Origin: Chloroflexota bacterium | GTDB taxonomy: Bacteria; Chloroflexota; UBA6077; FW602-bin22; JAMCWG01 | DNA length: 35,249 bases | NCBI GenBank assembly: GCA_023475235.1 | Contig: JAMCWG010000057.1 | Span: 1-35,249 of the forward strand | Direction of reading: 5' to 3' | Shown: positions 1,495 through 23,702 of the stretch, piece by piece | How the letters are laid out: the number at the start of each line of letters is the position of its first letter | Numbering within the stretch: the stretch's first letter is position 1 | The notes under the pieces: model-generated | Database searches by the model: none | What the model was told of the DNA's origin: nothing | Seen by the model: only the letters and a program-made list of their open reading frames with translations | Translations under genes and position numbers: made by a program

Positions 1495-1911
1495 CTACTG
1501 CGAATCCGGGGCACCTGCATCCGAAGCTCCCGCATCCGGCGCCGGACCACCCTGGTCAGAGGGGGCCGGTTCTGGCGCCGATGCATCCTGGTCGGGCGAA
1601 GCCGGCGGTGCTGCTGATGCGCCATTCTGATCAGACGGAGCCGGGGGCGCCGATGCGCCGGACGCCTGGGCAAAAGCGCCAGCCGGGTCGTCGGCGTGGG
1701 TGGGAATGGCCTCGAAGGCCTGGCCGAAATCGTTTCGCGGGCCACCGCCGCCCGGATTGACGTGGCAGGTGCCGCAGGCTTGGCCAGTGGCAGCGGCGTA
1801 ATTCGGCAAGGCCGCGCTGGGAGTTGGCCAGAACAGCAGCGCCACGGCAACTACAATGCAAGCTCCCGTCATCATCAGCAGCCGGGACCGCTTTGTGGTG
1901 ATGGAAATCAT
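1495..1911 (-). CDS. Exported monohaem c-type cytochrome-like protein with Pro/Asp/Gln-rich tail
   Basis: A 138-residue protein. The start ATG at 1911 has a good AGGAGG upstream. Residues 1-33 form a signal peptide (KR-rich start, hydrophobic core, PSA cleavage-type site). The haem c motif is C46-G-T-C49-H50, followed by a glycine-rich NPGGGGPRNDFGQAF segment that also occurs in small haem domains of secreted multihaem systems. Residues about 85-138 are low complexity with loosely repeated (A)PSDQ/SPDQ units and no obvious fold. It lies 13 nt downstream of the next cytochrome gene, so the two are probably co-transcribed. No Met ligand is evident, so the second axial ligand is unclear. Probably a small extracytoplasmic electron carrier; the exact partner is unknown. 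Confidence 0.75.
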   Translation of the reverse strand: MISITTKRSRLLMMTGACIVVAVALLFWPTPSAALPNYAAATGQACGTCHVNPGGGGPRNDFGQAFEAIPTHADDPAGAFAQASGASAPPAPSDQNGASAAPPASPDQDASAPEPAPSDQGGPAPDAGASDAGAPDSQ

Positions 1912-1924
1912 CGGCGTCTTCCTC

Positions 1925-2455
1925 CTATTTGAGTGTGGCGAGAAATGCTGCCAAATCAGCCAGGTCGGCATCGCTAACCTGAGCCGGTGTGAAGGCCGGC
2001 ATAATGCCCTTGCCCGCGCGCACCCTCTGAGCCAGGTCACCCTCACCCCCTCGGGCGATGAATCCGACCAGACTGGGGCCTACTCCCGCCTGACCATTGG
2101 GATGGCAGGCCGTGCACCGCGCTTGAAACACCGCTTTGCCCTTGGATGCATCCCCTTTCGGCTTTTCCTCAGAAGCCGCGGCCGCAGCCCCGGCCGGCGC
2201 TCCACCGGTCTTAGGAGCAACGGCCGGCGTCGCCGACGCCACGGCCTGAACGGGCGGCGGCGTGGGAAACGTCTTCTCGACGGTAGGTATGGAGGCCGGT
2301 CTAGCCGGTGCCTCGCAGGCTACGAGAAGGCCCAGCAACAGCACGGCCAGGACCCAGCCCTTCGGGCCGCTGCCCCTTTTACTCCAGCCGAGGCCCTTCC
2401 CGCCTTCCGGACCCGGTCGCGCCGGGCCGCCCCCATCCACTGTGGAAAGTCCCAT
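1925..2455 (-). CDS. Lipoprotein cytochrome c (class I type, one haem)
   Basis: A 176-residue protein. The ATG at 2455 overlaps the upstream stop as TGATG, indicating translational coupling; the ribosome site itself is weak. A long positively charged N-region precedes a hydrophobic segment ending in LLVAC (lipobox, C47), so the mature protein should be lipid-anchored outside the cytoplasmic membrane. A Pro/Ala-rich linker (about 50-100) leads to a cytochrome c domain with C114-T-A-C117-H118 and a probable Met ligand at M152 in GIMPAF. The usual final helix (DADLADLAAFLATLK) is present. It likely shuttles electrons between a membrane complex and a terminal acceptor or oxidase. The N-terminus is unusually long for a lipoprotein signal; an internal non-ATG start is possible. 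Confidence 0.82.
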   Translation of the reverse strand: MGLSTVDGGGPARPGPEGGKGLGWSKRGSGPKGWVLAVLLLGLLVACEAPARPASIPTVEKTFPTPPPVQAVASATPAVAPKTGGAPAGAAAAASEEKPKGDASKGKAVFQARCTACHPNGQAGVGPSLVGFIARGGEGDLAQRVRAGKGIMPAFTPAQVSDADLADLAAFLATLK

Positions 2456-3120
2456 CACTTTTGATGGATCGTCCGAACGTAGTTTATCAGGTGCCAAATC
2501 TCTTCCTCGCTAAGGTTATTCTTGAAAGCCGGCATCCCGTACCAGCCGTTGCCGATGACCCAAAACATCTCGCCATCGGTAACATCTCTCATGTAAGCCT
2601 GGGTCAAATCGACCGGCCTGTCGCTCAAGCCCTTGACCGCCGGGCCGTCACCCTTCCCGGAAGTCCCGTGGCACGGCGCGCAGCTCTGGATGAAGAGTTG
2701 GCGGCCCCTAGCCACTGACTCGGGCGTGCTGGGTATCGGGTTCTGCAGCGTGTCAGCCTCGACCGGGCGGCTCTGTACCACGATGGTCCCCTTCGCCGTT
2801 CTTTGCAGCCAGCTTTCGAAGGAGAAGGTGCCCTCTTTGGAGGGGACGAAGAACACGTTCACGGTGCCGCGCGCCGGAATGCGGGTCGGACCCACGCCGA
2901 ATTCGGGGATCACGATGTCGTATTCGAGATCGCGGCTGGTGACTTGCAGCTTCACCTTGCGCAGCGCCATCGCCACAATCTTCGACGGGACAAACTGGCC
3001 ATCCACCGCCGTCACTGCCACCACCTGGACGGGCTCAAAGCTGGCCTGGGCCTTGGGCCCCGGGCTGCAAGCGGCCGACACAATCAACAGGAATGCCATC
3101 GTTGCCCAAAGCGTGCGCAC
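2455..3120 (-). CDS. Cupredoxin-like domain fused to cytochrome c, exported
   Basis: A 221-residue protein starting at GTG 3120 behind AAGGGGGG. Residues 1-18 look like a lipoprotein-type signal (SAAC, C18). Residues about 30-116 form a beta-rich domain of the cytochrome oxidase subunit II/cupredoxin type (VTAVDGQFVPSKIV, then SKEGTFSFESW). It contains no Cys or His where the CuA or type-1 copper ligands would be, so I infer a copper-free domain. Residues about 132-221 are a class I cytochrome c with C147-A-P-C150-H151 and the Met ligand M196 in YGMPAF. The layout resembles the soluble part of a caa3 oxidase subunit II without its membrane helices, but no oxidase subunit I is nearby. It probably acts as an electron carrier together with the two cytochromes downstream. 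Confidence 0.8.
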   Translation of the reverse strand: MRTLWATMAFLLIVSAACSPGPKAQASFEPVQVVAVTAVDGQFVPSKIVAMALRKVKLQVTSRDLEYDIVIPEFGVGPTRIPARGTVNVFFVPSKEGTFSFESWLQRTAKGTIVVQSRPVEADTLQNPIPSTPESVARGRQLFIQSCAPCHGTSGKGDGPAVKGLSDRPVDLTQAYMRDVTDGEMFWVIGNGWYGMPAFKNNLSEEEIWHLINYVRTIHQK

Positions 3121-3258: not shown

Positions 3259-3954
3259 TCACAAGCCAGCCTGAAGCTTGTATCCCTGCTGCCTGGCGGT
3301 GATCAATCTCTTCGGCTCATCGGGATTGGCCTCCAGCTTCAGACGCAGCCGGCGCACATTCACCCACAGTCTGCAAGGGTCTCCCTCGCCGTCGGGCCAT
3401 CCCTCGTCCAGCAGCATCTCATCCCTCACCACCCGGTTCAGGTTGCGGGCCAGCGCCGACAGCAGGCGGCTTTCCACGGGGGTGAGGCGAATCTCGACGC
3501 CATTCAGGACGGCTACGTGCCTGGCGAAGTCGATGCTCAGCTCCTTATCGATCACCACTATCTGGCTTTCGGGGAGGAGGTGCCGCGTCCGCTTCAACAC
3601 CCGATTGATGCGGGCCAGGAGCTGCCGGTAGCTGAACGGCTTGACAACGTAGTCCTCCGCATAGAGGTCCAAGCCGTCGGTCACCGACTCTTCGGTGTCC
3701 ACGGCCGTCAGAAGCACGACCGGCAGGTCCAGGTAGCGCTTGAGCTCCTGGCACAACTGGAACCCGTGCATGTCCGGAAGGAGCAGATCCACGATGGCGA
3801 GATCAGGGAGCTTCTGCTGGGTCTTCTCAAGAGCTTCGCGCGCGGTAGAGGCCGTCATAATGTCAAACCCATCAGCCTCCAGATTGACCTGCAACGACCG
3901 CAAGATCGTTGGATCGTCGTCCACTACAAGTAACAGCGGAAAGCGTACGAGCAT
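3259..3954 (-). CDS. OmpR/PhoB-type response regulator
   Basis: A 231-residue protein. The receiver domain (about 5-118) has acidic residues D12-D13, phosphoacceptor D56 (DLAIVD), T83 and K105 (VVKPF). The C-terminal winged helix (about 135-231) has the typical ending RLITARQQGYKL. The ATG at 3954 is chosen because AGGAGAGG lies just upstream; a GTG at 3972 is in frame but less well placed. The gene lies 101 nt downstream of the hybrid histidine kinase on the same strand, so it is the likely partner, perhaps receiving phosphate from the kinase's own receiver or directly. It sits between the kinase and the cytochrome genes, which makes those genes (and the divergent membrane complex) plausible targets. 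That link is inference. Confidence 0.92.
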   Translation of the reverse strand: MLVRFPLLLVVDDDPTILRSLQVNLEADGFDIMTASTAREALEKTQQKLPDLAIVDLLLPDMHGFQLCQELKRYLDLPVVLLTAVDTEESVTDGLDLYAEDYVVKPFSYRQLLARINRVLKRTRHLLPESQIVVIDKELSIDFARHVAVLNGVEIRLTPVESRLLSALARNLNRVVRDEMLLDEGWPDGEGDPCRLWVNVRRLRLKLEANPDEPKRLITARQQGYKLQAGL

Positions 3955-4055
3955 ATCCTCTCCTGCCACCACTTACTTGTGCAATGGAATATACTCAGTT
4001 GACCTTACAGAATAACTTACGGACCATGCATAGGCTACAAGAACATTGAGCAATG

Positions 4056-6968
4056 TCACGCCGATGGGCTGCCGGCAGGATCGTCTTTGCCGGGCGCGGC
4101 AGCCTCCACGGATATCAGCGATCTCTCCACCACCTCCAGCAGGTCGAGGCCGGCGAATGGCTTGCGCACATACGCCACACCGCCCGCTTGCTTGCCCTTT
4201 TCCTCATCGTCCTCGCCTGCTTTGGCGGTCAAGAACACCAGGGGGATCCCGAACGTGGCTGGATCGGAGCGCAGTGTGTGAGCGATCTCAAAGCCATCCC
4301 CGTCGGGTAGCACGACGTCCAGCAGGATCAGGTCAGGATGATTCGTCTTCAGGAAGGCAAACAACTGCTCGGCGCTGGCGGCCTCGGACACCTCGAAGCT
4401 ATGGGCCCGCAGACTGAGGCGTACCGCTTTCAGAACATCAGGCTCGTCGTCGACCACCAGAACGTGCCGTCCGGCCACGCGGACCGGCAGGGCGAACGGC
4501 AGGCTTTTGTCCCGAGGCTTGGACTTCACGGAAGCAGATGCATTTGCGCCCCGGAATGCCGGCAGGCAGAAGCTGAAGGTGGTCTGCCTCCCCGGCTCGC
4601 TCACCACCCAGATCGCGCCGTGCATCGCCTCCAGATAGGTCTTGCAGATGTACAGGCCCAGGCCAGCCCCGGCGGTGGACCGGGTGACAGGGTTGTCGAT
4701 CCGGCTGAAGGGTTGAAACAGGCGGAACTGGTCTGCGGCCGCTATGCCGACGCCGCCGTCGGTAACCGATACCACGACGAAGGCGGGGGATTCGCCTTGT
4801 CTGCCCGACAGGCCGACTTCCGGGGGTAGGGACCGGCCGTCCGCCGGCCGGAGATCTACAACGATGGTCCCACCGCCGGGCGAGTACTTCACCGCGTTCG
4901 AGATGAGGTTGCTCAACACATCTTCCACCCGGTCAGGGTCGGCGAAGACGAAGGGCAGTTTGGGAGCGATGGAGACGGTGAAATCGCGGCTGGTATTCCG
5001 GCGAAATTCGGCCACCACTCTCTCGACGACCGCGGGGAGAGGGAGAGGCCCAGCACGCAGCTCCAGCTTACCGGACTCGAAGCGAGTGACGGCCAGCAGG
5101 TCTGCCACCAAGCGCGTCAGGCGGTCCGCGGCACGGTCGATCCCCTCCAGGAATTCACGCCGCTCGCGAGAGCTGAGTCGCACATCGCGGCGGAGGAGGG
5201 TCTCGGCCAGGCTCTTTATCACCGTGAGCGGGGTGCGCAGTTGATGCGACGCCCGGGCCACAAACTCGGTCTTGAGCCGGTTGAGCTCGCGCCAGGCGCC
5301 GGCAAGGCTGGCCTCCCGAAAGAGCCGTGCATTGAGGATGGCCAGGGTAGCCTGATTGGCCAGGTTACGGAGAAGCTGCATCTCCGACGGCGAGAAGACA
5401 CCTCCGCGCCGGGAGTAAAGGGCGAGGCTCCCCAGCACCTGGTCTTCGGCGGCCAGGGGAACGGCCAGCCCCGGTCCCTCGGCCAACAGCCGCGATGCGT
5501 CTCCACCCTCGTCCACGGTCCTCTCACCCGGGCCGGCCGGCTCGTGGCCCTCCAACAGCACCGGCTGCTGGCTGGCGAAGGCCTCTCCCGCGCAGCCTTC
5601 GCCGGGCGCAAACGTCAGCACTTCCGGCCCGGCCCCGTCGAACCCGAAGGAAGCCTCGGCCACCAGGCGGTGCTCTTCAGGACGGTAGAGGAACACCGCC
5701 CCGGCGTCGGCGGCAGGGAAGAGCGCCCGCAGCGCCTCGGTGGTGCCCTTCAGCACGGTCTCCATTTGCAGCGTGGAGGCCAGCGCGCTGGAGACCTCAA
5801 AGAGGGCCGAAAGCTCCTTAGTCTTCGCCTCCAGGTCCTCCGCCCGCTGCTCCAGTTGCTGGCGGGAGCGACGTAGCTGGACCCGCATATCTTCGAAGCT
5901 CTTGGCCAGCCGGCCGATCTCGTCCTGCCGGGATGACTCCATCGGGGTATCCAGCTCGCCGGCGGCGATGCGCTGGGTGGCTTCCGTCAGTTGCCCGATG
6001 GGCCGGACCACCCGCCTGGTGAAGGCCCACACGACGATCAGCGCCACCGGCCAGGCCAGGAGGTCGAAAATGATCAAGCTGCTCTGCAGGCGTCGAGTGG
6101 GCTGCAGGGCCTCGTCCTCCGACTGGCGCAGCACAACTCCCCACGGCAGGCCTGATAGGGGAGCGAAAGCCGCCACATCGCGCCGCCGGGCTGTTCCCGT
6201 GTCCGTCTCGTGGCACCGGTGGCACGTGCGCACCACCGGCCGATCCTCGCGGATCAGCATCTTGAAGCGGTCGGCGTGGTCGGACTTCTCCAGCTTGTCC
6301 GGCGGGCGCCCCGGCTCGGTCCGGGCCAGCACCATCCCGTGCTGGTCCACAAGCTCGGCGTATCCGGTCTGTCCGAGCTTCAGCGATTGGGAGGCGCCGC
6401 CCCACACGAGCTCTGCCGGATCGACGGCATTGATGACCAGTCCACCGGTCCGGTTTACCTGGCCAAGGGGAGCTACCAACAGGACCATCGGCCCTGGACC
6501 GAAGGGCGCGCCCTGGGTGGTCAAGATCCGCGGCTGTCCGTCTTTCAGGGCATCCAGCACGTCCGGCTGGGCTTCCAGGCTGGCGCCGAGCAAGGGCACT
6601 CCGTTGGTCCCGGCCGAAACGACGTGCCCGGCCTCGTCCACGACGACGATGATGCCGCCCAGCACCTCCTCGACGCGCGATGGCAGGATGGTTGGCTTGG
6701 CACTTTCGTTATACTCAGGCTCTTGCCAGGAAGCAGCGACCACGGCTTGTAGCTGCCGCAGCCGGCGGTGCACGACGGCATCGGTGTTGTTGGCGACGAA
6801 CTCGGCCACGGACAGGCGCTCTTCGAGCATGCGATCGGTGCTGTATTGCACCGCCTGGTAGCCCAGATAGGCCATACTGAGGAACAGCACCACGAGGCCG
6901 GCGATGAGCAGCAGCAAGACCTTGGTCTGCAAGCGCCAGTCGGAAAAGACAAACCACTTCCTCGCCAC
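4056..6968 (-). CDS. Hybrid sensor histidine kinase with haem c motif in the extracytoplasmic sensor domain
   Basis: A 970-residue protein starting at GTG 6968 with GAGGAG upstream. Order of parts: TM1 about 14-36; an extracytoplasmic sensor (about 38-295) of apparent dCache/PAS fold containing C249-H-R-C252-H253, a canonical CxxCH haem c attachment site; TM2 about 297-317; HAMP about 318-370; a short coiled coil; GAF about 388-548; HisKA with H575 (ASHQLRTP); HATPase_c with N-box N691, DGGVGI near 737 and GAGLGLY near 767; then a receiver with D884 and K936. The combination suggests redox or gas sensing (O2, NO, redox potential) through a covalently bound haem. A class of haem-c sensor kinases and chemoreceptors is known (for example in Geobacter). 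The gene is divergent from a pentahaem-cytochrome complex and upstream of more cytochromes, which fits redox control. Confidence 0.92.
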   Translation of the reverse strand: MARKWFVFSDWRLQTKVLLLLIAGLVVLFLSMAYLGYQAVQYSTDRMLEERLSVAEFVANNTDAVVHRRLRQLQAVVAASWQEPEYNESAKPTILPSRVEEVLGGIIVVVDEAGHVVSAGTNGVPLLGASLEAQPDVLDALKDGQPRILTTQGAPFGPGPMVLLVAPLGQVNRTGGLVINAVDPAELVWGGASQSLKLGQTGYAELVDQHGMVLARTEPGRPPDKLEKSDHADRFKMLIREDRPVVRTCHRCHETDTGTARRRDVAAFAPLSGLPWGVVLRQSEDEALQPTRRLQSSLIIFDLLAWPVALIVVWAFTRRVVRPIGQLTEATQRIAAGELDTPMESSRQDEIGRLAKSFEDMRVQLRRSRQQLEQRAEDLEAKTKELSALFEVSSALASTLQMETVLKGTTEALRALFPAADAGAVFLYRPEEHRLVAEASFGFDGAGPEVLTFAPGEGCAGEAFASQQPVLLEGHEPAGPGERTVDEGGDASRLLAEGPGLAVPLAAEDQVLGSLALYSRRGGVFSPSEMQLLRNLANQATLAILNARLFREASLAGAWRELNRLKTEFVARASHQLRTPLTVIKSLAETLLRRDVRLSSRERREFLEGIDRAADRLTRLVADLLAVTRFESGKLELRAGPLPLPAVVERVVAEFRRNTSRDFTVSIAPKLPFVFADPDRVEDVLSNLISNAVKYSPGGGTIVVDLRPADGRSLPPEVGLSGRQGESPAFVVVSVTDGGVGIAAADQFRLFQPFSRIDNPVTRSTAGAGLGLYICKTYLEAMHGAIWVVSEPGRQTTFSFCLPAFRGANASASVKSKPRDKSLPFALPVRVAGRHVLVVDDEPDVLKAVRLSLRAHSFEVSEAASAEQLFAFLKTNHPDLILLDVVLPDGDGFEIAHTLRSDPATFGIPLVFLTAKAGEDDEEKGKQAGGVAYVRKPFAGLDLLEVVERSLISVEAAAPGKDDPAGSPSA

Positions 6969-6988: not shown

Positions 6989-7017
6989 ACGATACATCTG
7001 CGCCCCAGGTTTGTCAA
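6989..7017 (-). promoter_or_regulatory. Strong candidate sigma70 promoter for the haem-sensor kinase
   Basis: On the minus strand, TTGACA (7017-7012) and TATCGT (6994-6989) are exactly 17 bp apart. The -35 box is perfect and the -10 box matches 4/6. The predicted start leaves a leader of only about 15 nt before the GTG at 6968, which still includes the GAGGAG ribosome site. No equally good promoter is visible for the divergent cytochrome gene in the rest of this roughly 200-nt gap; a TTGACA at 7116-7121 lacks a matching -10 box. Confidence 0.6.
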
Positions 7018-7165: not shown

Positions 7166-7690
7166 GTGCGAGAGTTCGCTGCTTTCTTGCTGGGCCTGCT
7201 CATCATAGTTGGCGGAGCCGGCTACGCCGTGGCCTATGCGAACAAGGCTGAGGAGGTGGTGCAGCCGATCCGCTTCCCGCACGCCAAGCACACGTCGCTG
7301 GTGTCGTGCCAGACCTGCCATACCCAGGTGAACGACACGCCCCACGCCGGGCTGCCCAAGATAGCGACCTGTATGGGTTGCCATCAGGCCGACGTCAGCA
7401 AGAGCCCGGAAGCAGCGAAGGTCCGCCAGTACAGCGACCGCGGCGAAGAAGTCCCCTGGATCAGGCTGTACGAGCTGGCAGACGACATCTCCTTTTCCCA
7501 TCGTTTCCACCTGAAGCAGGGGCTTGACTGTCAGGCCTGCCACGGCGCCATCGGCGAGAGCACCCAGTGGAACACCGGGTTCGGGAAGAACGGGACAAAT
7601 GGCCCGTCGGGGCGAGACCTTATGGGCTTCTGCCTGGCGTGCCACCAGGGCCGGGGGGCCGCCACTGACTGTGTGGCTTGTCACAAGTAG
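7166..7690 (+). CDS. Membrane-anchored pentahaem cytochrome c (QrcA/ActA-like)
   Basis: A 174-residue protein starting at GTG 7166, five nt after AAGGGAAGGAG. Residues about 4-24 form one hydrophobic helix that is probably retained as an anchor. Five CxxCH haem sites are visible: C48-H52, C69-H73, C122-H126, C156-H160 and C169-H173. Extra histidines (HAKH, HAG, SHRFH) fit bis-His ligation as in class III cytochromes. It is the first gene of a four-gene set with a molybdopterin-family protein, a four-cluster ferredoxin and NrfD. The same order occurs in QrcABCD (quinone reductase complex of sulfate reducers, where QrcA is hexahaem); alternative complex III has a pentahaem ActA. It should pass electrons between the Mo-family/FeS subunits and soluble cytochromes outside the membrane. 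Confidence 0.88.
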   Translation: MREFAAFLLGLLIIVGGAGYAVAYANKAEEVVQPIRFPHAKHTSLVSCQTCHTQVNDTPHAGLPKIATCMGCHQADVSKSPEAAKVRQYSDRGEEVPWIRLYELADDISFSHRFHLKQGLDCQACHGAIGESTQWNTGFGKNGTNGPSGRDLMGFCLACHQGRGAATDCVACHK

Positions 7691-7710
7691 CTCGTGGTTG
7701 GGGAGTTGAC

Positions 7711-10146
7711 GTGAGCATCGGGCGTCGTACCTTTCTGAAGCTGGCGGGGACTACCGTGGTCGGCGCCACGCTGCTCCCCAATGTATCCATCCCTCTGCCA
7801 TCGCCTCAACCAGAGGCGCCGGCGGCTGCGGAGGAGCCGGCCGTCGAGGATGTTGCCACCTGGGTGCCCAGTGTGTGTCTCCAGTGCGACGGGGGCTGCG
7901 GCATCATGGTCAGGGTGATAGATGGCCGGGCCATCAAGATCGAGGGCAACCCGTCGTACCCGGTGAACAGGGGAAAGCTCTGCCCGAAGGGGCAGGCAGC
8001 CCTCCAGGTACTATACGACCCGGACCGCATCAAATGGCCGATGCAAAGGGTCGGGGAGCGCGGCCAGGGCCAGTGGCGGCGTATCGCGTGGCCGGAGGCC
8101 CTGAATCTGGTGGCAAGCCGGCTCAACGCACTTCGAGGGCGGGGAGCGCCTCAGTCCCTGATGGTGTGGTCGGGAAGGACCCGCGGACAGATGGGCACCC
8201 TGCTATCCCGCTTCACCGAGGCCTTCGGGTCTCCGAACTACCTGGAGAACAGGTTCTCCGGCGCCGACGCCGCTCTCAAAGCCCACTACCTGGCCACCGG
8301 CATAAATGAGCTGCCGGCGTACGACCTGAGCAACACCAGCTATCTGCTGAGCTTTGGGGTCAGCTTCGCCGAGGCGTGGCGCCCCACGGTGAGCGTCCTG
8401 CGCGCTTTCGGCCACATGCGGCGTGGCACGCCCGGACGCCGGTCCAAGATCGTCCAGATCGACCCGCGCTTTTCCCCTTCGGCGGCCAAGGCCGACGAGT
8501 GGATTCCCATCCAACCGGGGACCGACGCCCTCCTGGCCCTGAGCATCGCCCACGTGATCATCAAGGAGAAGCTGTACGACGATGCCTTCTTGAAGGACAG
8601 CGTCTTCGGCTTCCAGGACTGGAGGGGGCCGGACGGGCAGAAGCACATGGGATACACGGCCCTCGTCCTCGACGAGTACGCGCCGTCGGCGGTGGCGGAG
8701 CGCACCGGCGTTTCAGCCGACGATATTACCCGGCTGGCCAGGGAGTTCGCCACCCACCGGCCGGCGCTGGCGGTGGCAGAGCGGGGCGTGTCCGGCCATA
8801 CCAATGGCCTCTTCAGCCACCTGGCCATCCAGAGCCTGAACGCTCTGGTAGGCAGCGTGGGCGCGACAGGCGGCGTCATCGCCCAGGAACATCCTCCTCT
8901 GGCGGCCCTCCAGCCCCTGAAGCTGGACGAGGCGGCCCGGAAAGGGCTGGGCAACATCAGAGTCGACCGGGCCGGGACCTCCCGGTTTCCGCTGGCCGAC
9001 GGCACCAGCCAGGGCCTGGCCGATGGCATCCTGCGGCAGGACCCGTATCTGGTGGATACCCTTCTTCTCTACTACACGAATCCGCTTTTCAGCCAGCCCG
9101 GCTTGACCCAATTCCATCAAGCCTTTCAGAAGATACCATTCATCGTCAGCTTCTCTCCGTTTATGGACGAATCCAGCCAGTATGCCGACCTCATACTGCC
9201 TGACTGCACCTTCCTGGAGCGCCTGCAGGACGACGAGCCGCCCCCTCACCTGGGCTCCCCAGTCCTGGGGCTTCGCCAGCCGGTGGTGACTCCCCTGTAC
9301 GACACGGCGAACACCGGCGACGTGCTGATTCTGCTGGCGCGGATGATGGGCGGAGCCGTCGGCGCCGCCTTCCCCTGGCGCAACTTCGAGGAGATGCTCC
9401 GCCAGCGCCTGGCGGGCCTGCCCGCCACCTCCACCAGCCCGGCCGGGACCGATTGGGAGCGTCTGCGTCAACAGGGAGGCTGGTGGGACCCAGGTGCCGC
9501 AAAGACCGAGGGTGGCTACCCCTTCACCACCCCCTCCAAGAAGTTCGAGCTGTACGCTCAGCTAATGCAGCGCGGGCTCCAGACCGTAGCGGATGCAGGA
9601 GGCCAGAACCCCGCCTCCAACCCGGGCGACAGGCTGGATAACATGTTGTCTCACGTGGGAATCGGAGCTTACGTGGGGATTGCCGCCCAGGGGGACAAGG
9701 CGTTCCTGCCGCACTATGAGTCGGCGCACTTCGCCGGCGACGAGAAGGAATACCCTCTGTACCTCAACACTTATAAGAGTATGGCTCTGGCCGAGGGCCG
9801 CGGGGGCAACGAGCCCTGGCTACTGGAGGTCTTCGGGCCGGCCCTGGGAGAAAAATGGACCTCCTGGATAGAGATCAACCCCGAGACGGCCCGCCGGCTG
9901 GGCATCGCCGACAAGGACCAGGTATGGATGGAGTCGGCATTCGGGCGCATTCCGGCCCGCGCCCGTCTCTTTGCCGGCGCCCGGCCGGACACGGTGAACA
10001 TGCCCTTCGGCTTCGGCCACCGCGCCTACGGACGGTGGGCGAAGGATAGAGGTGCGAACCCCAACTGGATCCTGGCGAGCGACGGCGACCCTCTAGCCGG
10101 ACTGGTCGGCTGGTCGGCTACCCGGGTGAAAGTCTACAGGGCATGA
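7711..10146 (+). CDS. Tat-exported molybdopterin oxidoreductase-family subunit (QrcB/ActB1/PsrA-like)
   Basis: An 811-residue protein. The start GTG 7711 places a Tat signal (SIGRRTFLKLAG) at the very N-terminus, with GGGGAG upstream. An N-terminal [4Fe-4S] site is seen as C56-x2-C59-x3-C63-x27-C91, then the long bis-MGD-type domains and a C-terminal molydopterin dinucleotide-binding-type domain (YPLYLNTYKSMALAEGRGGN onward). Around residues 178-195, where catalytic family members carry the Cys/SeCys/Ser/Asp metal ligand, I see NRFSGADAALK and no cysteine. QrcB and ActB are family members reported to lack Mo, so an electron-transfer rather than catalytic role is plausible; an alternative is a polysulfide/thiosulfate-type reductase with a non-Cys ligand. 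Its stop overlaps the next start (ATGA). Confidence 0.88.
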   Translation: MSIGRRTFLKLAGTTVVGATLLPNVSIPLPSPQPEAPAAAEEPAVEDVATWVPSVCLQCDGGCGIMVRVIDGRAIKIEGNPSYPVNRGKLCPKGQAALQVLYDPDRIKWPMQRVGERGQGQWRRIAWPEALNLVASRLNALRGRGAPQSLMVWSGRTRGQMGTLLSRFTEAFGSPNYLENRFSGADAALKAHYLATGINELPAYDLSNTSYLLSFGVSFAEAWRPTVSVLRAFGHMRRGTPGRRSKIVQIDPRFSPSAAKADEWIPIQPGTDALLALSIAHVIIKEKLYDDAFLKDSVFGFQDWRGPDGQKHMGYTALVLDEYAPSAVAERTGVSADDITRLAREFATHRPALAVAERGVSGHTNGLFSHLAIQSLNALVGSVGATGGVIAQEHPPLAALQPLKLDEAARKGLGNIRVDRAGTSRFPLADGTSQGLADGILRQDPYLVDTLLLYYTNPLFSQPGLTQFHQAFQKIPFIVSFSPFMDESSQYADLILPDCTFLERLQDDEPPPHLGSPVLGLRQPVVTPLYDTANTGDVLILLARMMGGAVGAAFPWRNFEEMLRQRLAGLPATSTSPAGTDWERLRQQGGWWDPGAAKTEGGYPFTTPSKKFELYAQLMQRGLQTVADAGGQNPASNPGDRLDNMLSHVGIGAYVGIAAQGDKAFLPHYESAHFAGDEKEYPLYLNTYKSMALAEGRGGNEPWLLEVFGPALGEKWTSWIEINPETARRLGIADKDQVWMESAFGRIPARARLFAGARPDTVNMPFGFGHRAYGRWAKDRGANPNWILASDGDPLAGLVGWSATRVKVYRA

Positions 10147-10877
10147 CCCAGATGGCGAGCGATGGGGAGGAGCGAAGGGTGTATCGGTGGGGGATGGTGA
10201 TCGACCTGGACAAGTGCACCGGCTGCCAGGCCTGCGTGGTGGCCTGCCGGGCGGAAAACAACATCCCCTTCGCCGGCGAGGAGCAGGCCCAGATGGGCCG
10301 GGCCATCTTCTGGATCAGAATCATGCCCGTCCTCGAGGGGGAATACCCGCGCGTCAGGCAACGCTTCATTCCCGTTCCCTGCCAGCAGTGCGACAATCCG
10401 CCTTGCATCAAGGTGTGTCCGGTAGGTGCCACCTACAAGAACAACGAGGGCGTGGTATCGCAGGTCTACGCCCGCTGCATCGGGTGCCGGTTTTGCACCG
10501 TGGCCTGCCCCTACACCGTCCGCAACTTCAACTGGTACTCCCCGCAGTGGCCCGAGGGAATGGACCGCTACCTCAATCCCGATGTGCCGGTTCGCCCTCG
10601 AGGCGTCGTGGAGAAGTGCAGCTTCTGCAGCCAGCGGATAAGGGAGGCCAGGATGAGGGCCGAAGAGGAGAACCGCCCCGTGAGAGACGGCGAGGTTGTC
10701 CCGGCGTGTGTTCAGACCTGTCCCGCCGACGCCATGTTCTTCGGCGACCTCAACGACCCCGACAGCACCGTGTCGCGGCTCGCGCGCAGCCGTCGCGCCT
10801 TTCGCCTTCAGGAGGAGCTCGGCACCAATCCCAAAGTGATCTATCTCGGAGAGGAGGACTGGGATGCGAAGGCTTGA
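10143..10877 (+). CDS. Four-[4Fe-4S] ferredoxin-like electron-transfer subunit (QrcC/PsrB/ActB2-like)
   Basis: A 244-residue protein. Four clusters can be traced by cysteines: C25-C28-C31-C35, C80-C83-C88-C92, C112-C115-C118-C122 and C159-C162-C189-C193, the pattern of DMSO-reductase-family B subunits. It has no signal peptide, so it is probably carried across the membrane bound to its Tat-exported partner, as known for this family. The start overlaps the previous stop by 4 nt and the end overlaps the NrfD gene by 14 nt, which indicates tight coupling. It should wire the Mo-family subunit to the quinone site in the NrfD protein. In ACIII the equivalent domain is usually fused to the Mo-like domain; here it is separate, as in Qrc and Psr. 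Confidence 0.93.
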   Translation: MTQMASDGEERRVYRWGMVIDLDKCTGCQACVVACRAENNIPFAGEEQAQMGRAIFWIRIMPVLEGEYPRVRQRFIPVPCQQCDNPPCIKVCPVGATYKNNEGVVSQVYARCIGCRFCTVACPYTVRNFNWYSPQWPEGMDRYLNPDVPVRPRGVVEKCSFCSQRIREARMRAEEENRPVRDGEVVPACVQTCPADAMFFGDLNDPDSTVSRLARSRRAFRLQEELGTNPKVIYLGEEDWDAKA

Positions 10878-12210
10878 GCCCGAATCCGCGGACCACGACC
10901 TCGTTTTCCAGCCCATCCTGCGCCCGGGAATGTGGTCCTTCCCGGTGGCGGGCGTTCTCCTGGCCGTAGTGCTGTGGGCCGGGTACGCCTGGGGCTATCA
11001 GCTTATGCACGGCCTGGGCGTCACGGGCCTCAACCGCCCCGTGTTCTGGGGCATTTACGTGACGAATTTCATCTTCTTCATCGGCATCAGTCACGCCGGG
11101 ACCCTGATCTCGGCCATTTTGCGGGTCACCCACGCAGGCTGGCGCCGGCCCATCACGCGAGCCGCCGAGGCCATCACCGTCTTCGCCCTGATGATCGGCC
11201 CGATGAATATCATCATCGACCTGGGCCGGGCGGACCGCCTGCTGTATCCCTTCATCTTCGGCCGGTTTCAGTCTCCCCTCTTGTGGGATGTGATGGCCAT
11301 AACCACGTACTTCACCGGCAGCGTGATCTACCTCTACCTGCCGCTGATCCCCGACATCGCAATGGTCCGGGACCGGCTGTCGCGCCACGACTTCCGAAGG
11401 CCTCTCTATCAACTGCTGTCCCTGGGCTGGACGGGGAGCGAGGAGCAGAGGCGCCGCCTCAGCCGGGCCATCGGCATTATGGCCGTCGCCATCATCCCCA
11501 TCGCGGTGTCGGTGCACACCGTCGTGTCGTGGGTCCTGGCGATGACCATCCAGCCTATGTGGCACAGCGCCATCTTCGGGCCCTACTTCGTCGTCGGGGC
11601 TATCTTCTCCGGCATCGCCACACTGATCATCGCGATGGCTATCCTCAGGCGGGCCTTCCATCTGGAGCCGGTGCTGACGCCGCGCCACTTCAATAACCTG
11701 GGCATTCTCCTGCTGGTGATGACCCTTGCCTGGCTCTACTTCACGTTCGCCGAGTATCTGACCACCTTCTACGGCGGAGAGCCGAGCGAGATGGCGGTGT
11801 TCCGGGCCAAGGTGTGGGGGGATTACCTCTGGCTCTTCTGGGGCATGGTGTTCATCACCTTTGTCATTCCTTTCTTCATCCTGGCCCTTCCCAAGACGCG
11901 CACCATCGCCGGCACGGTGGTGGCCTCTATTCTGATCAACATCGGAATGTGGATCGAGCGCTTCACCATCGTCGTGCCCACCCTCATTCACCCGCGCCTG
12001 CCGTACGACCCGGGGCAATACAGCCCCACCTGGGTGGAGTGGTCGATAACCGCAGGGGAGTTCGCTGCCCTGGCGCTGCTCTATGTTATCTTCTCCAAGC
12101 TGTTCCCGATCGTCTCCCCGTGGGAGATTTCCGAGGGCGAGGCCGAGGAGGCATTGAAGGCATCGAAATCGCAACGTGTGGTGGTCGAAGCGCTGGCGCG
12201 CCAGAGATGA
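10864..12210 (+). CDS. NrfD-type integral membrane quinone-binding subunit (QrcD/ActC-like)
   Basis: A 448-residue, very hydrophobic protein with about ten transmembrane helices starting near residue 24. Typical PsrC/NrfD-family segments are FWGIYVTNFIFFIGISHAG in the second helix, then NIIIDLGRADR and IWLILNI-like helices including IAGTVVASILINIGMWIERF. The length and ten-helix layout fit the ActC/QrcD branch better than the shorter eight-helix NrfD. It should oxidise or reduce menaquinone at the outer membrane face and pass electrons to the ferredoxin subunit. The start ATG 10864 lies inside the end of the ferredoxin gene. No ActD, ActE or ActF homologue follows, so this is not a complete ACIII operon. 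Confidence 0.93.
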   Translation: MRRLEPESADHDLVFQPILRPGMWSFPVAGVLLAVVLWAGYAWGYQLMHGLGVTGLNRPVFWGIYVTNFIFFIGISHAGTLISAILRVTHAGWRRPITRAAEAITVFALMIGPMNIIIDLGRADRLLYPFIFGRFQSPLLWDVMAITTYFTGSVIYLYLPLIPDIAMVRDRLSRHDFRRPLYQLLSLGWTGSEEQRRRLSRAIGIMAVAIIPIAVSVHTVVSWVLAMTIQPMWHSAIFGPYFVVGAIFSGIATLIIAMAILRRAFHLEPVLTPRHFNNLGILLLVMTLAWLYFTFAEYLTTFYGGEPSEMAVFRAKVWGDYLWLFWGMVFITFVIPFFILALPKTRTIAGTVVASILINIGMWIERFTIVVPTLIHPRLPYDPGQYSPTWVEWSITAGEFAALALLYVIFSKLFPIVSPWEISEGEAEEALKASKSQRVVVEALARQR

Positions 12211-12568: not shown

Positions 12569-12617
12569 GGGCTTGAGAGGCTTGGAAATAATCACCGCTT
12601 TTTGAAGGAGGCGATTG

Positions 12618-13397
12618 ATGGGTCCAGAGACATTGCCGCTGGTGATAACCGCGGTGGCTGTGGTGGTGGTCGCCGGCTGGGGCTGGCTGGGAGTGAAGAT
12701 CGTGCATCAATGGGAGCGCGGCGTGCTCTTCCGGCTGGGCCGCTTGGCGGGGACGCGTGACCCCGGGTTGAACTTCATCATCCCGATCGTGGACCGGCTG
12801 GTGAAGGTGGATATGCGAATTCTGACCACCGTCCTCGAGCCTCAGGAGGTCATCACGCGAGACAACGTTACCATTCGCGTCGATGCGGTCGTCTACTTCC
12901 GGGTGACCGATGCCCAGAAGTCGGTCATCGAGGTGGAAGATTTCGTGAACGCCACCAATCAGATCGCCCTGGCCACGCTGCGGAGCGTCCTGGGCCAATC
13001 GGACCTGGACGAATTGCTCGCGCACCGCGACCGCGTGAATGACCTGTTGCGGGAGATCATCGAGCAGCAGACCGAGGCGCCCTGGGGGGTTAGGGTGACG
13101 GTGGCCGAGGTGAAGGACGTGCTCCTTCCGGAGGGCATGCAGCGGGCGATGGCCCGCCAGGCCGAGGCAGAGCGGGAGAAGCGGGCCAAGATCGTGCACG
13201 CCGACGGGGAATTCGCCGCCGCGCAGACCCTGGCCGACGCCGCAGAGATTCTGGAAGCGCGCCCGGCCGCCCTCCAGCTCAGATACCTGCAGAGCATGGT
13301 GGAGATGGCCGGCGAGCGGAACAGCACTATCATCCCAATCCCGGTGGAGATGCTCAGTCTGGCCAAGCACCTTTCCACCGTGGATCTGCGGTCCTGA
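12618..13397 (+). CDS. Slipin/stomatin-type SPFH (band 7) membrane protein
   Basis: A 259-residue protein. The ATG at 12618 follows AAGGAGGCG at a good distance; a TTG directly before it is less likely. An N-terminal helix (about 6-24) is followed by the SPFH domain (WERGVLFRLGR, GLNFIIPIVDRLVKVDMR, ITRDNVTIRVDAVVYFRV) and an Ala/Glu-rich coiled coil (about 170-225: ARQAEAEREKRAKIVHADGE). The closing segment NSTIIPIPVEML is typical of slipins. Slipins form oligomeric membrane rings or scaffolds. Bacterial slipins are often next to NfeD-type proteases, but no nfeD is present here; instead the gene follows the NrfD complex, so a role in stabilising that complex is possible. Confidence 0.93.
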   Translation: MGPETLPLVITAVAVVVVAGWGWLGVKIVHQWERGVLFRLGRLAGTRDPGLNFIIPIVDRLVKVDMRILTTVLEPQEVITRDNVTIRVDAVVYFRVTDAQKSVIEVEDFVNATNQIALATLRSVLGQSDLDELLAHRDRVNDLLREIIEQQTEAPWGVRVTVAEVKDVLLPEGMQRAMARQAEAEREKRAKIVHADGEFAAAQTLADAAEILEARPAALQLRYLQSMVEMAGERNSTIIPIPVEMLSLAKHLSTVDLRS

Positions 13398-13683: not shown

Positions 13684-16600
13684 TTACCTGCCCACCAGCA
13701 GGGCCTCGGCCTTGGCCACGATCTGGTCGTCTTCGTAGTGCTGCAGGCGGATGGCCTTGCCCGGGCAGGCTGCCACGCACGTGCCGCAGCCGTGACACTC
13801 CGCCGCCTCTATCTCGGCGACGCCGCGGCTGCCGACGCGGGGCACCTGGTAGGGACAGACCCGCACACAGGTCAGGCAGGCCGCGCACCTGGCGCCGTCC
13901 ACCGTGGCCACGGCACCGCCGACCTCCAGACGGGGCCGGGACAAGATCGCGGCCGCCCGCGCCGCTGCAGACAGGGCCTGGGCAATGCTCTCTTCGGCGA
14001 ACTTCGGGTAGTGGGCCGTGCCCGCCAGGAAGAGCCCCTCCGAGGCGAAGTCCGTGGGCCGGAGCTTGACGTGGGCCTCCAGGAAGAAGCCCTCGCGCGT
14101 GAGCGGGACCTTCAGCGTCGAGGACAGGGCATCGGCGCCGTCGGCCGGGACGATGGCCGTGTTCAGCACCACCAGGTCAGCCGGTATGGTGATCTCCCCC
14201 TCCTGCACCTGCGATTGGGCGGTCACGGCGAGGTGGCCGTCGTGCGGCACGATAACCGGCCTGTGCTCGTCATCGTAGCGCAGGAAGACTACGCCTTTCT
14301 CACGCGCCTCTCGATAGAACAGCTCCTTGAAGCCATAGGTGCGCACGTCCCTGGCCAGGACGAAGACGCGGGCCGCGGGCGCCAGCTCCTTGACTCGCAG
14401 GGCGTTTTTCATCGAGAGGACGCAGCAGATGCGGCTGCAGTACTCGCCGCGGCCCTCCTCCGGTCCCACGCACTGGACGATGACGATGTTCCTGGCCCCC
14501 ATCACCTCCGGCCGGGCATCGGCCACCATCTGCTCGAAGTCGGCGATGGTGGTGACGCGCGGGTCCTGGCCGAGCAGGTATTCGTCCCCGCGGTACTCGT
14601 GCCCGCCGGTGGCCACGATGGTCGCGCCGTGCTCCACCCGGCGCTCGATGCCGTCCTGTGCGATGGTCGTGGTGAAGTTGCCGACGTAGCCGGTCGTGTC
14701 CACCACCTGCGCGCCCAGCAGCACCTCGATGTCCGGATGCTCTTCCACCTTGCGCGTTAGGTCGCTCAGGAAAGCGGCCGGATCGGACCCTTCCGCGGTG
14801 AAGCGCACCCTCCGCAGGGTACCGCCCAGGCGCTCCTCACGCTCCACTATAGTGGCCGGGAAGCCCTGGCCGGCCAGGGAAAGGGCAGCGGTCATCCCGG
14901 CGATGCCGCCGCCGATGACCAGCGCCCGCGACGTCACCGGTATCTGCTGCTTGTAAAGTGGCCGCAGCCGCGCCGCCCGGGCCACAGCCATTCGCACCAG
15001 GCCCTTGGCCTTCTCCAGGGCCGCTTCGGGCGTGCCCTTATGCACCCACGAGCACTGGTCGCGTATGTTGGCCATCTCGAAGAGGTACGGGTTGAGGCCC
15101 GCCTCTCGCAGGGTGTCCTGGAAGAGAGGCTCGTGGGTCCGCGGCGTGCAGGCCGATACCACCAGGCGGTTCAGCCTGTGCTCCTCGATGGCCTGCTTGA
15201 TGACCTCCTGGTTGTCCTGCGCGCAGGTATAAAGGTTGGACGTGGCGTAGACCACATTCGGCAGGGTGGCGGCGTACTCGGCCACCCTGCGGACGTCGAT
15301 CACGCCGGCGATGTTGGTGCCGCAGTGGCAGATGAAGACGCCAATGCGCGGCTCCTGCCCGTCGAGCGGGACCTCCGCCGGATACTCCTTCCGGGCGGCC
15401 AGGGTGCCCCGGGCCGCGCCCACCAGCTCCAGGCTGCGGGCGGCCGCGCCGCTGCCCTGCACGACGCTATCCGGAATGTCGCAGGGTTGAACGATGGGCC
15501 CGCAGGCGAAGATGCCGGGACGGTTGGTCTCCAGCGGGGCGAACTTGTCCGTGTGGCAGAAGCCGAACTCGTTCAGCTCGATGCCCAGGGCCTCGGCCAG
15601 GGCGGGCATATTTGCTGCCGGCTCCATTCCCACCGAGAGCACCACCAGATCGAACTCCTCCTCGACGATTTCCCGGTCGTCCGCCTGGTACCGGACCAGC
15701 AGGTTGCGACTGCCCGGCACCTCTTTGATGCTGGAGGGACGGCACCGCACGTAGCGCACGCCGTAGTCGGCCTGGGCCCGCTCGTAATAGGCGTCGAAGC
15801 CCTTGCCGAAGGCCCGCATGTCCATCATAAAGATGGTGCTGCTGGCCGTGCTGTCGTGGTCCCTGGTCAGGATGGCGTGCTTGGTGGCGAACATGCAGCA
15901 GACGGACGAGCAGTACGGATGCCGCTGGTCGCGGGAGCCGACGCACTGGAAGAAGGCAATCCGCTTGGGATGGCGGCCGTCGGAGGGGCGCACCACCGTG
16001 CCGGCGGTCGGCCCGGCGGCCATCAGCAGGCGCTCGTACTGCAGGCTGCTGAGCACATTGGGGTAGCGGCCGAAGCCGAATTCCTCCGACTGGCGGGCGT
16101 CGTAGGGCTCGAAGCCGGTGGCTACCACGATCGCCCCCACCGGCACCTCGATTTCCTGTTCCTGCATCTCGTGGTCGATGGCCCGCCGCTCGCACAGCTC
16201 GGCGCAGATCCCGCAGTTGCCGGTGCGGAAGTGGATGCAGGTCTCCGGGTCGATGACGGGCACCTTGGGCACGGAGGTGGCCGACGGCGTGTAGATGGAG
16301 GTGATGGGACCGAGAGGCAGGGCGCTCATCACCGCTTCGTCGAGGCCCTCGATGCGGATAGCGCCGGTGGGACAGACGGCGGCGCAGGCCCCGCAGGCGA
16401 TGCACTCCTCGGAGGTCGCATCGTACGGCGTGCTCACCTCGCGGTCGGGGCCGCGGTTCACGAAGGTCAGGACGCTCTTGCCCACCACTTCCTCGCACAC
16501 CCTGACGCACAGGCCGCAGAGTATGCAGTCGTGGTCTTCGACGGGGAAGGCCGGCTTCTCGATGCCGAACTGCCGGGCCAGGCCCTGGATGACGGGGACA

Positions 16601-16908
16601 TTCGGACAGCGCGCCAGCAGCAGCTCGACCATCATCTTACGCGCTTCCATCACTCTGGACGAGCTGGTGCGTACCACCAGCCCTTCCTCCACCGGGTAGG
16701 TGCATGCCGTGTACAGCCGCGATCGCCGGGGGCCCACGGCCTCCACCAGACACAGGCGGCAGGCCCCGAAGGGACTGATCCCCTCGTGATAGCAGAGGGT
16801 GGGAATGTACACCCCCAGACGCCGGGCAGCCTCCAGAACGGTCAGCCCCTCTTCGACCTGGACTTCGCGATTATCAAGGGTGAAGGTCACCATCGCTCGT
16901 CCCTTCAT
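13684..16908 (-). CDS. hdrA: HdrA-like flavoprotein lacking its first domain, fused to an N-terminal NuoG/hydrogenase-type [2Fe-2S]-ferredoxin module
   Basis: A 1074-residue protein. Residues 1-75 are a plant-type [2Fe-2S] domain with C39, C50, C53 and C69, as in NuoG and [FeFe]-hydrogenase N-termini. Two [4Fe-4S] motifs follow: C128-C131-C134-C138 and C169-C172-C175-C179. The NuoG HxxxC cluster motif is not seen. From about residue 200 it aligns with the plus-strand HdrA downstream of that protein's first ferredoxin motif (C224, C232, C235, C239; CVGSRDQ; SSVCCMFATK). A second complete HdrA unit follows with CHCGTNI, an FAD-binding GGGIAG near 660, and two C-terminal [4Fe-4S] sites. The missing first FAD domain is encoded by the overlapping gene just upstream. 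The start is ATG 16908 (GGGAG upstream); ATG 16893 is also reasonable. Likely a bifurcating flavin protein receiving NADH electrons from NuoEF. Confidence 0.9.
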   Translation of the reverse strand: MKGRAMVTFTLDNREVQVEEGLTVLEAARRLGVYIPTLCYHEGISPFGACRLCLVEAVGPRRSRLYTACTYPVEEGLVVRTSSSRVMEARKMMVELLLARCPNVPVIQGLARQFGIEKPAFPVEDHDCILCGLCVRVCEEVVGKSVLTFVNRGPDREVSTPYDATSEECIACGACAAVCPTGAIRIEGLDEAVMSALPLGPITSIYTPSATSVPKVPVIDPETCIHFRTGNCGICAELCERRAIDHEMQEQEIEVPVGAIVVATGFEPYDARQSEEFGFGRYPNVLSSLQYERLLMAAGPTAGTVVRPSDGRHPKRIAFFQCVGSRDQRHPYCSSVCCMFATKHAILTRDHDSTASSTIFMMDMRAFGKGFDAYYERAQADYGVRYVRCRPSSIKEVPGSRNLLVRYQADDREIVEEEFDLVVLSVGMEPAANMPALAEALGIELNEFGFCHTDKFAPLETNRPGIFACGPIVQPCDIPDSVVQGSGAAARSLELVGAARGTLAARKEYPAEVPLDGQEPRIGVFICHCGTNIAGVIDVRRVAEYAATLPNVVYATSNLYTCAQDNQEVIKQAIEEHRLNRLVVSACTPRTHEPLFQDTLREAGLNPYLFEMANIRDQCSWVHKGTPEAALEKAKGLVRMAVARAARLRPLYKQQIPVTSRALVIGGGIAGMTAALSLAGQGFPATIVEREERLGGTLRRVRFTAEGSDPAAFLSDLTRKVEEHPDIEVLLGAQVVDTTGYVGNFTTTIAQDGIERRVEHGATIVATGGHEYRGDEYLLGQDPRVTTIADFEQMVADARPEVMGARNIVIVQCVGPEEGRGEYCSRICCVLSMKNALRVKELAPAARVFVLARDVRTYGFKELFYREAREKGVVFLRYDDEHRPVIVPHDGHLAVTAQSQVQEGEITIPADLVVLNTAIVPADGADALSSTLKVPLTREGFFLEAHVKLRPTDFASEGLFLAGTAHYPKFAEESIAQALSAAARAAAILSRPRLEVGGAVATVDGARCAACLTCVRVCPYQVPRVGSRGVAEIEAAECHGCGTCVAACPGKAIRLQHYEDDQIVAKAEALLVGR

Positions 16909-17386
16909 CTTTCGATCTCCCGATCACCAGGCTGCCCTTGCGTATGGTTTTCACCAGAGGGATACGCCTGGATACACAAGCATTCCAGCAGATGCCGCAG
17001 CCGGTGCATCTCTCCTCGTCCACGAAGCGGGACTTGCGCTTCACCCGCACCTTGAAGTTGCCGGCCGTTCCCTCGACCGCGGTGACCTCACTGTAGGTGA
17101 GGAGGGTGATGTTGGGATTGCGGGCCACCTCGACCAGCTTGGGGGAGATGATGCAGGTGGCACAGTCGTTGGTGGGGAAGGTCTTGTCGAACTGGACCAT
17201 CTTGCCGCCGATGGCCGGGGCCGACTCCACCAGATAGACCTTGATGCCGGAGGCGGCCAGGTCCAGCGCCGCCTGCATGCCAGCCACACCGCTGCCGATG
17301 ACCATCGCCGCGCCTACCGGCGCCGCGCCTGTCGGGACGCCGCATGCGGGTGCCGCGCCCGGGTGGCCACTCTCCTGTCCTGCCAT
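16874..17386 (-). CDS. hdrA: Detached HdrA N-terminal FAD/[4Fe-4S] domain
   Basis: A 170-residue protein. The ATG at 17386 has GGAGGT 8 nt upstream, which overrides an in-frame ATG at 17401. After a Gly/Ala/Pro-rich start comes a Rossmann motif (GSGVAG), then AIGGKMVQFDKTFPTNDCATC and a [4Fe-4S] motif CTGCGICWNAC. It then ends in a short charged tail. This equals residues about 10-125 of the plus-strand HdrA, where the same segment is the start of a 1005-residue protein. The gene overlaps the next one by 35 nt, so the two chains probably assemble into one split HdrA. A 179-nt stretch is identical to the plus-strand hdrA. A 116-nt gap with AT-rich sequence separates it from nuoF; a weak internal promoter (TATACT) there is possible. 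Confidence 0.85.
   Translation of the reverse strand: MAGQESGHPGAAPACGVPTGAAPVGAAMVIGSGVAGMQAALDLAASGIKVYLVESAPAIGGKMVQFDKTFPTNDCATCIISPKLVEVARNPNITLLTYSEVTAVEGTAGNFKVRVKRKSRFVDEERCTGCGICWNACVSRRIPLVKTIRKGSLVIGRSKDEGTSDGDLHP
17103..17281 (-). repeat. 179-bp inverted repeat, left copy (within hdrA N-terminal gene)
   Basis: The reverse complement of this interval is identical at all 179 positions to 20296-20474, including every synonymous site over about 60 codons. Identity breaks off abruptly on both sides: the next codon positions differ (GCT/GCC on one side, CTC/CTT on the other) and the proteins then diverge. The interval between the copies is 3014 bp and holds nuoF, nuoE and the divergent promoters. 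Confidence 0.97.
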
Positions 17387-17502
17387 TGGACTAACCTCCA
17401 TTGGGACGTGCGAGGAATTCTCTCGCCGCTATCACTAATTAAGTATAAGCATCAGCCAAGTTATGACATGGGCTACTTCACGTTCTTTTTCGAGGGGAAG
17501 GC

Positions 17503-19386: not shown

Positions 19387-19456
19387 ACCGCACCCCCATT
19401 GTCTAACGCACAACCCTGTCCAGCGCCGCACTCCATCGTGCACGCCTGTGCTGCCC

Positions 19457-19930
19457 TTAGGGTTCCTCGTACCGTTTCAGCAGTGTATCTACCTTGGTCA
19501 CGCTTATCTTCGCGTAGATCTCCCCATCCACCAGGCATACGGGGCTGACCGCACAATCGCCGACGCAGTTGACCACTTCCAGGGTGAACCGGCCGTCGCG
19601 CGTCGTGTGCCCGGCCCTGACCCCCAGCTCCCGCTCTATCTTCTCTAGGATGACGCCGGCCCCCCGCACGTGACAGGCCGTCCCCAGGCACACGCTGATG
19701 ACGTGTCTGCCGCGAGGCTCCAGGCTGAACGCCTTGAAGAAAGTGGCCAGACTATAGATGCGACTGATGGGCAGGCCGGTGCGTTGAGCGACGCGTTCCA
19801 ACGCCTCGCGCGGGAGGTAGGAGTACTCGGCCTGGATATCCTGCAGGAGGCCCACCAGCCCACCCTCGGCGCTATCGTAAGCGGCCAGGGCGGCGTCTGT
19901 CTTCGCCAGATCAATCGCCGCGGTTGTCAT
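19457..19930 (-). CDS. nuoE: NuoE/HydC-type [2Fe-2S] thioredoxin-like subunit
   Basis: A 157-residue protein with the four ligands C81, C86, C122 and C126 (CLGTAC and NCVGDC), preceded by the helical N-terminal domain typical of 24-kDa subunits (YLPREALERVAQRTGLPISRIYSLATFF). Two adjacent ATGs are possible (19933 and 19930); the second has better spacing from GGGAGG. It is the first gene of the minus-strand operon and the partner of the NuoF-like protein. A promoter about 180 nt upstream gives an unusually long leader. With NuoF it forms the NADH-oxidising module. Confidence 0.94.
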   Translation of the reverse strand: MTTAAIDLAKTDAALAAYDSAEGGLVGLLQDIQAEYSYLPREALERVAQRTGLPISRIYSLATFFKAFSLEPRGRHVISVCLGTACHVRGAGVILEKIERELGVRAGHTTRDGRFTLEVVNCVGDCAVSPVCLVDGEIYAKISVTKVDTLLKRYEEP

Positions 19931-20114
19931 CATTGTCCTCCCGACGATCAGTTACCAGAGTGAATAGCACTTTTGCCCACGATACGGCCTGTACCGATGG
20001 CCCGCCGTTCCTGGACACGCACCAATTCCCGTGCTTTTCTGTTGCCCTTGCTGCCACGACGCCGGCAACTGCACATAGGCATCCACGCCAACGTCTGCGG
20101 GACCGGGCAGGGGT

Positions 20115-20143
20115 ATTATAGCCTACTGCCTGGCCGGTTTCCA
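20115..20143 (-). promoter_or_regulatory. Candidate sigma70 promoter of the nuoEF-hdrA (split) operon
   Basis: On the minus strand, TGGAAA (20143-20138) and a perfect TATAAT (20120-20115) are 17 bp apart. The predicted transcript has a leader of about 178 nt before nuoE. Confidence 0.55.
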
Positions 20144-20149
20144 CAAATC

Positions 20150-20179: not shown

Positions 20180-20238
20180 GGTCTGTGGCGTTGTGCCTGC
20201 AATGGGCCGCGACAGGCGACCATACTGAGGAGGTCTTG

Positions 20239-23699: not shown

Positions 23700-23702
23700 C
23701 CT

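Follow-up and report, generated by a model that had tools for sequence, protein, structure and literature searches.

Genes and features of the kinase locus

The window, that is the whole stretch of 35,249 nucleotides that was analysed, carries a hybrid sensor histidine kinase gene on its minus strand, with the following features within and upstream of it.

4056..6968, minus strand: hybrid sensor histidine kinase, 970 aa, GTG start (ORF and Pfam matches)
6858..6932, minus strand: predicted transmembrane helix 1 (TM1), residues ~13-37 (Kyte-Doolittle scan)
6090..6857, minus strand: predicted extracytoplasmic double Cache sensor domain, residues ~38-293 (Pfam, PDB profile, AlphaFold2, Foldseek)
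6276..6278, minus strand: H231, candidate sixth (distal) haem ligand, the best conserved of the candidates (residue counts given below)
6210..6224, minus strand: CHRCH (C249-H253), where covalent attachment of haem c is predicted (sequence, conservation, AlphaFold2 topology)
6015..6089, minus strand: predicted transmembrane helix 2 (TM2), residues ~294-318, followed by HAMP (Kyte-Doolittle scan)
6989..7017, minus strand: putative promoter of sigma-70-like type (TTGACA-17-TATCGT) ahead of the kinase gene

Pfam matches and hydrophobicity gave the domain order TM1, dCache sensor, TM2, HAMP (residues 316-366), GAF (401-544), HisKA (566-633, E 5.6e-17), HATPase_c (677-804, E 1.7e-24) and receiver (836-947). 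The sensor domain is predicted to lie outside the cytoplasm because hydrophobic helices flank it and HAMP follows directly after TM2, in agreement with the earlier note, which had placed it between two membrane helices. The note had also credited the gene with a promoter of its own, and the hexamers upstream fit this claim, with 10 of 12 consensus positions and one pattern found versus 0.1 expected, as a pattern match only. A second histidine kinase, of GAF-PAS-HisKA_3 type, is encoded at 30008-32068 of the same window.

The sensor domain has a predicted double Cache fold

Pfam dCache_1 matched the sensor domain of the window kinase with an E value of 1.8e-8, at 34.6 bits versus the curated cut-off of 45; at E<=0.001 it matched all 35 members of the family (the window kinase and the 34 homologues described below), the best with 3.9e-19. 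A profile built from eight of the domains matched PctA in the PDB at 8e-9. AlphaFold2 modelling with 34 sequences produced two Cache modules (pLDDT 90.4, pTM 0.86), and Foldseek ranked the dCache sensors 3lif, DctB and PctA at the top for this model. By Pfam, PDB profile, predicted structure and structural search alike, the sensor domain is thus modelled as a double Cache fold.

In the model the CHRCH motif falls at the beta3-beta4 junction of the second, membrane-proximal Cache module. It starts at the end of a strand (215-220 in model numbering, to which 30 is to be added) and runs into a loop of lower confidence (~67), which is followed by the strand 233-240 (same numbering). Such low confidence might be expected around a cofactor that the prediction leaves out. 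A profile of the second Cache module searched against the PDB gave weak hits only, with no haem-sensor structure among them.

The CHRCH motif and candidate haem ligands

A CHRCH sequence in the sensor domain had been reported in the earlier note and is indeed present at C249-H253. C249 and C252 are the sole cysteines of the extracytoplasmic segment, the three others of the protein being at 459, 775 and 801. From the amino-acid composition of the 970-aa kinase, 0.0004 chance occurrences of CxxCH are expected. The motif is also kept in paralogues and homologues, as described below, and is not due to chance.

Comparison of 43 motif-bearing with 36 motif-less domains, sampled as described below, was used to look at other residues. 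H231 occurs in nearly all domains that have the motif (41/43), yet 23/36 of those that lack it have this residue too; it was dropped as a haem-specific ligand for this reason, and is kept as the best candidate for the sixth ligand. Other residues track the motif: F235 (38/43 motif-bearing versus 1/36 motif-less), R281 (37/43 versus 1/36) and Y203 (42/43 versus 6/36), along with the invariant H250.

Variants of the site were seen in a few relatives. In the CHDCH domains of L095 (8049-8882) and L098 (8995-9828) the stretch around position 231 reads NCRYGDRF, so that H231 is replaced and a cysteine sits just ahead of its position; by analogy with Tll0287 these domains may have Cys/His haem ligation. 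Two motif-less dCache domains, L016 and L052 (G054, G247), read CLGC-T at the position of the haem motif, a Cys pair without the His that is either a decayed haem site or a site for another metal or a disulphide.

Conservation and phylogeny of the motif

Two paralogous kinases of the same genome, with 33-35% identity, have CHRCH in the same alignment column, and a third, more distant one is without it. CHxCH was found in 10/46 homologous domains of a first sample taken across the phylum. A scan of named genomes, with four domains as the query, used the patterns WGV... and ...TGYAEIV, which lie in other parts of the domain, so that the motif itself was not selected. All 33 loci obtained were from MAGs labelled Chloroflexi/Chloroflexota, Dehalococcoidia, Dehalococcoidaceae or Dehalococcoides. 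The scan was aimed at relatives that carry the motif, and its result is compatible with occurrence in other phyla.

Conservation of CxxCH among homologues had been set beforehand as a test of the haem reading, and CHxCH was present in 33 of the 34 homologous domains at these loci. The second such test, whether the domain is predicted to be cytoplasmic, likewise went in favour of that reading. C249, H250 and C252 are invariant in the 34 retrieved domains and H253 is present in 33; the sole exception, L097, reads CHDCG and has lost H231 too. Among the 35 family members HAMP was found in every one, HATPase_c in 32 and HisKA_3-type kinase modules in 26.

A quick tree of 79 domains (43 with and 36 without the motif) was built with the motif columns left out. 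Motif presence needs 3 changes on this tree versus a mean of 26.2 for shuffled labels, and the haem clade has an SH-aLRT of 94. The simplest account of the three changes is a single gain followed by two losses. A more careful tree, of 45 domains, supported the haem clade with 92/93 and had two motif-less domains nested inside it, both of which fall outside in the 79-domain tree. In both trees motif-less dCache relatives surround the clade.

Relationship to sCache_heme

A 2026 preprint (PMC12889525) groups the DUF3365/Tll0287 domains as sCache_heme and presents them as the first Cache type to have a covalently bound cofactor. It proposes an unusual evolutionary event in which part of a cytochrome was inserted into a sensor, and reports these domains to be rare or absent in Chloroflexota. 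PF11845, the Pfam family of sCache_heme, was found in 13/400 sampled Chloroflexota genomes, all outside the class of the window. Membership of the window kinase in sCache_heme was considered and rejected: it has no PF11845 match, its AlphaFold2 model has two Cache modules and its best Foldseek hits are dCache.

Descent of both groups from one haem-carrying ancestor, with the window kinase as a divergent sCache_heme member, would account for two Cache-superfamily domains that both have CxxCH late in the fold. We nevertheless consider it unlikely. PF11845 matched neither the window kinase nor any of the 34 homologues, and when the second modules of ten domains were searched separately, none matched even with E values up to 1 allowed. 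HHalign comparison of the family with twelve PF11845 sequences from the Chloroflexota sample aligned only ten columns around CxxCH, with a probability of 8.5%. The motif precedes the ...FAPL strand in the dCache family but follows the ...YMAPL strand in sCache_heme, where strand order was read from sequence, so that it apparently lies one hairpin earlier in the former. Because the haem clade is nested among motif-less dCache domains, and because of the ten-column match and the different placement of the motif, the haem-c dCache family of Dehalococcoidia/Chloroflexota appears to have made its single gain of the motif independently of sCache_heme.

Haem maturation genes and the nature of the site

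The earlier note had suggested checking the genome for ccm/ccs genes, and the outcome was divided. No CcmC/CcmF/CcsA, ResB or CcmE gene was found in the MAG of the window itself, which is 74.8% complete, and both CcmC/CcmF-type and CcmE genes were present in all four motif-bearing relatives tested.

The result in the MAG itself would suit a site that binds another metal such as zinc, or acts as a disulphide switch, without covalent haem, as would the CHxC of L097 without its last His and the presence of H250 in 43/43 domains, an invariance equal to that of the residues of the haem motif. Such a site is, however, quite improbable in our judgement: CHxCH is a usual form of the cytochrome c motif, its exact CxxCH spacing is kept in 43 domains, the sensor domain is predicted to be on the side of the membrane where c-type maturation works, the relatives have Ccm genes, and the same genomes encode multihaem cytochromes. 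A covalent haem c remains the preferred reading of the motif.

Gene neighbourhood

The genes on either side of the kinase are as follows.

1495..2046, minus strand: small 183-aa protein with one CxxCH (CGTCH) and a long proline/alanine-rich tail
1925..2497, minus strand: monohaem cytochrome c with one CxxCH (Pfam)
2455..3120, minus strand: cupredoxin-like and cytochrome c protein with one CxxCH (Pfam)
3259..3972, minus strand: OmpR-type response regulator (Response_reg and Trans_reg_C), probable partner, directly downstream of the kinase
7166..7690, plus strand: five-CxxCH cytochrome, QrcA-like (NCBIfam QrcA E 9e-29, below cut-off), first gene of the divergent operon
7678..10146, plus strand: molybdopterin-oxidoreductase-family subunit (Pfam Molybdopterin; ArrA/PhsA/QrcB-like below cut-offs)
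10143..10877, plus strand: multi-cluster FeS subunit, QrcC-like (NCBIfam QrcC E 1.6e-90, below cut-off)
10864..12210, plus strand: NrfD-type membrane subunit (Pfam NrfD E 2.5e-35)
12615..13397, plus strand: SPFH/Band_7 protein (Pfam Band_7), with homologues recurring beside related kinases

Cytochrome genes thus stand on both sides of the kinase as the earlier note had described, the five-CxxCH protein starting at 7166 on one side and the three single-CxxCH proteins at 3120-1495, beyond the response-regulator gene, on the other; the 183-aa protein among the latter had no Pfam or NCBIfam match. In NCBIfam matches, which fall below the curated cut-offs, the divergent operon at 7166-12210 most resembles the Qrc menaquinone reductase and complexes related to it. 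Nothing convincing was found in a search for regulator-site repeats in the intergenic regions. Further along, window positions 13684-28002 encode an HdrA-like protein of 1074 aa, a NuoF-like protein of 646 aa, a pyridine-nucleotide oxidoreductase fused to a FlpD/MvhD domain and an HdrB/CCG-type protein, and look like a heterodisulfide-reductase-like electron-transfer cluster.

A group of FeS, NrfD and SPFH genes recurs beside dCache kinases in many related Chloroflexota loci. At L075 and L077 the order is kinase, LuxR/NarL-type regulator, SPFH, (multihaem cytochrome), FeS, NrfD, and the SPFH/Band_7 copies of related loci are 66-74% identical. Two of the three NrfD genes of the window's own genome lie <=10 kb from motif-bearing kinases (binomial ~0.001, computed after the pattern was seen). 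Motif-less dCache kinases likewise adjoin FeS-NrfD genes (L117, L118 and L122), and multihaem neighbours are not significantly commoner beside motif-bearing than beside motif-less kinases (15/41 versus 3/12, p=0.73), which leaves a haem-specific association of the motif with such neighbours unsupported. For these two reasons the link to respiratory complexes is a trait of the wider kinase family and not of the haem, and the gene context does not identify the signal of the haem.

Proposed mechanism

On the strength of the sequence with its predicted topology and fold, of the conservation and phylogeny of the motif, and of the gene context, we infer a dCache sensor kinase, in a family that gained its motif once, in which one haem c would be attached through C249 and C252 with H253 as the proximal ligand, signalling redox state (or NO) to the kinase and an OmpR-type regulator. 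We hold this reading with good confidence, and the results support the haem-c sensor proposed in the earlier note. Oxidation or reduction of the haem iron, or exchange of its sixth ligand, would alter the membrane-proximal Cache module, and TM2 and HAMP would relay the change to the kinase with its receiver domain and on to the OmpR-type regulator encoded beside it. This regulator would probably tune the neighbouring genes for the cytochromes and the Qrc-like quinone oxidoreductase, as the earlier note had supposed in giving the kinase control of the neighbouring electron-transfer locus.

By analogy with known haem sensors, the signal would most likely be tied to the redox poise of the respiratory chain outside the cytoplasm, as for the Geobacter sensors (PMC8396549), with NO as the alternative, as for signalling-linked sCache_heme (PMC12889525). 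Redox has a slight lead, since a conserved His could serve as the sixth ligand and the surrounding genes are respiratory. A genuine haem that responds to NO or another diatomic gas instead of redox poise is a real but lesser possibility. A HAMP-linked sCache_heme protein releases NO slowly and forms no stable O2 complex (PMC12889525), and the HAMP of all 35 family members and the HisKA_3-type modules of most are in keeping with such a role. The window family differs from sCache_heme in fold family and motif position, however; the conserved H231 could make a six-coordinate haem that is less open to gas, and an unsystematic look at the neighbours of the window kinase showed no genes that were recognisably related to gases. 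A redox signal remains preferred by a small margin.

If the haem-c reading is true, the dCache family would be a second family, with another Cache architecture, and haem acquisition by Cache sensors would have happened more than once. It would also offer a natural comparison for the coupling of haem to the Cache/HAMP signalling route, and a handle on the regulation of electron-transfer complexes in uncultured subsurface Dehalococcoidia.

Comparison with known haem sensors and dCache domains

The dCache_1 sensors PctA, DctB and 3lif share the overall double-Cache fold with the window kinase, but bind small ligands, and we know of no CxxCH or covalent cofactor in them. No dCache domain with a haem turned up in the literature that was searched. 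Haem in a double Cache is not discussed in PMC12889525, where 'dCache' occurs twice, in one reference and in the wording for a P. azotoformans protein.

Covalent haem in periplasmic sensors is already known from DcrA, GSU0582/GSU0935 and Tll0287/sCache_heme. DcrA of Desulfovibrio vulgaris, which senses redox potential or O2 (PMC8396549), is a transmembrane sensor with a c-type haem outside the cytoplasm, as is predicted for the window kinase, but is a chemoreceptor. GSU0582 and GSU0935 of Geobacter also have haem-c sensor domains in the periplasm, for which a redox-linked change of spin and ligand has been proposed as the signal; they differ from the window kinase in being chemoreceptors that form domain-swapped dimers, with a single PAS-like/Cache domain and axial His with Met or water (PMC8396549). 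The sCache_heme domains, like the window family, are extracytoplasmic members of the Cache superfamily that have a single conserved CxxCH and are frequently joined to kinases or to signalling modules of other kinds, but they have a single Cache with a PF11845 match, whereas the window family has a double Cache with the motif in the second module.

Judged from these sequences, the predicted haem-c sensing on a double Cache is a new and probably independently evolved variant. With somewhat less confidence than in the haem-c sensor itself, we favour the view that this 'dCache_heme' would represent a second, independent origin of covalent-haem Cache sensors, centred in Chloroflexota, in which CHxCH arose in an ordinary ligand-binding dCache domain, within its membrane-proximal module and in a different hairpin from that of sCache_heme, and came to be used to tune respiratory complexes.
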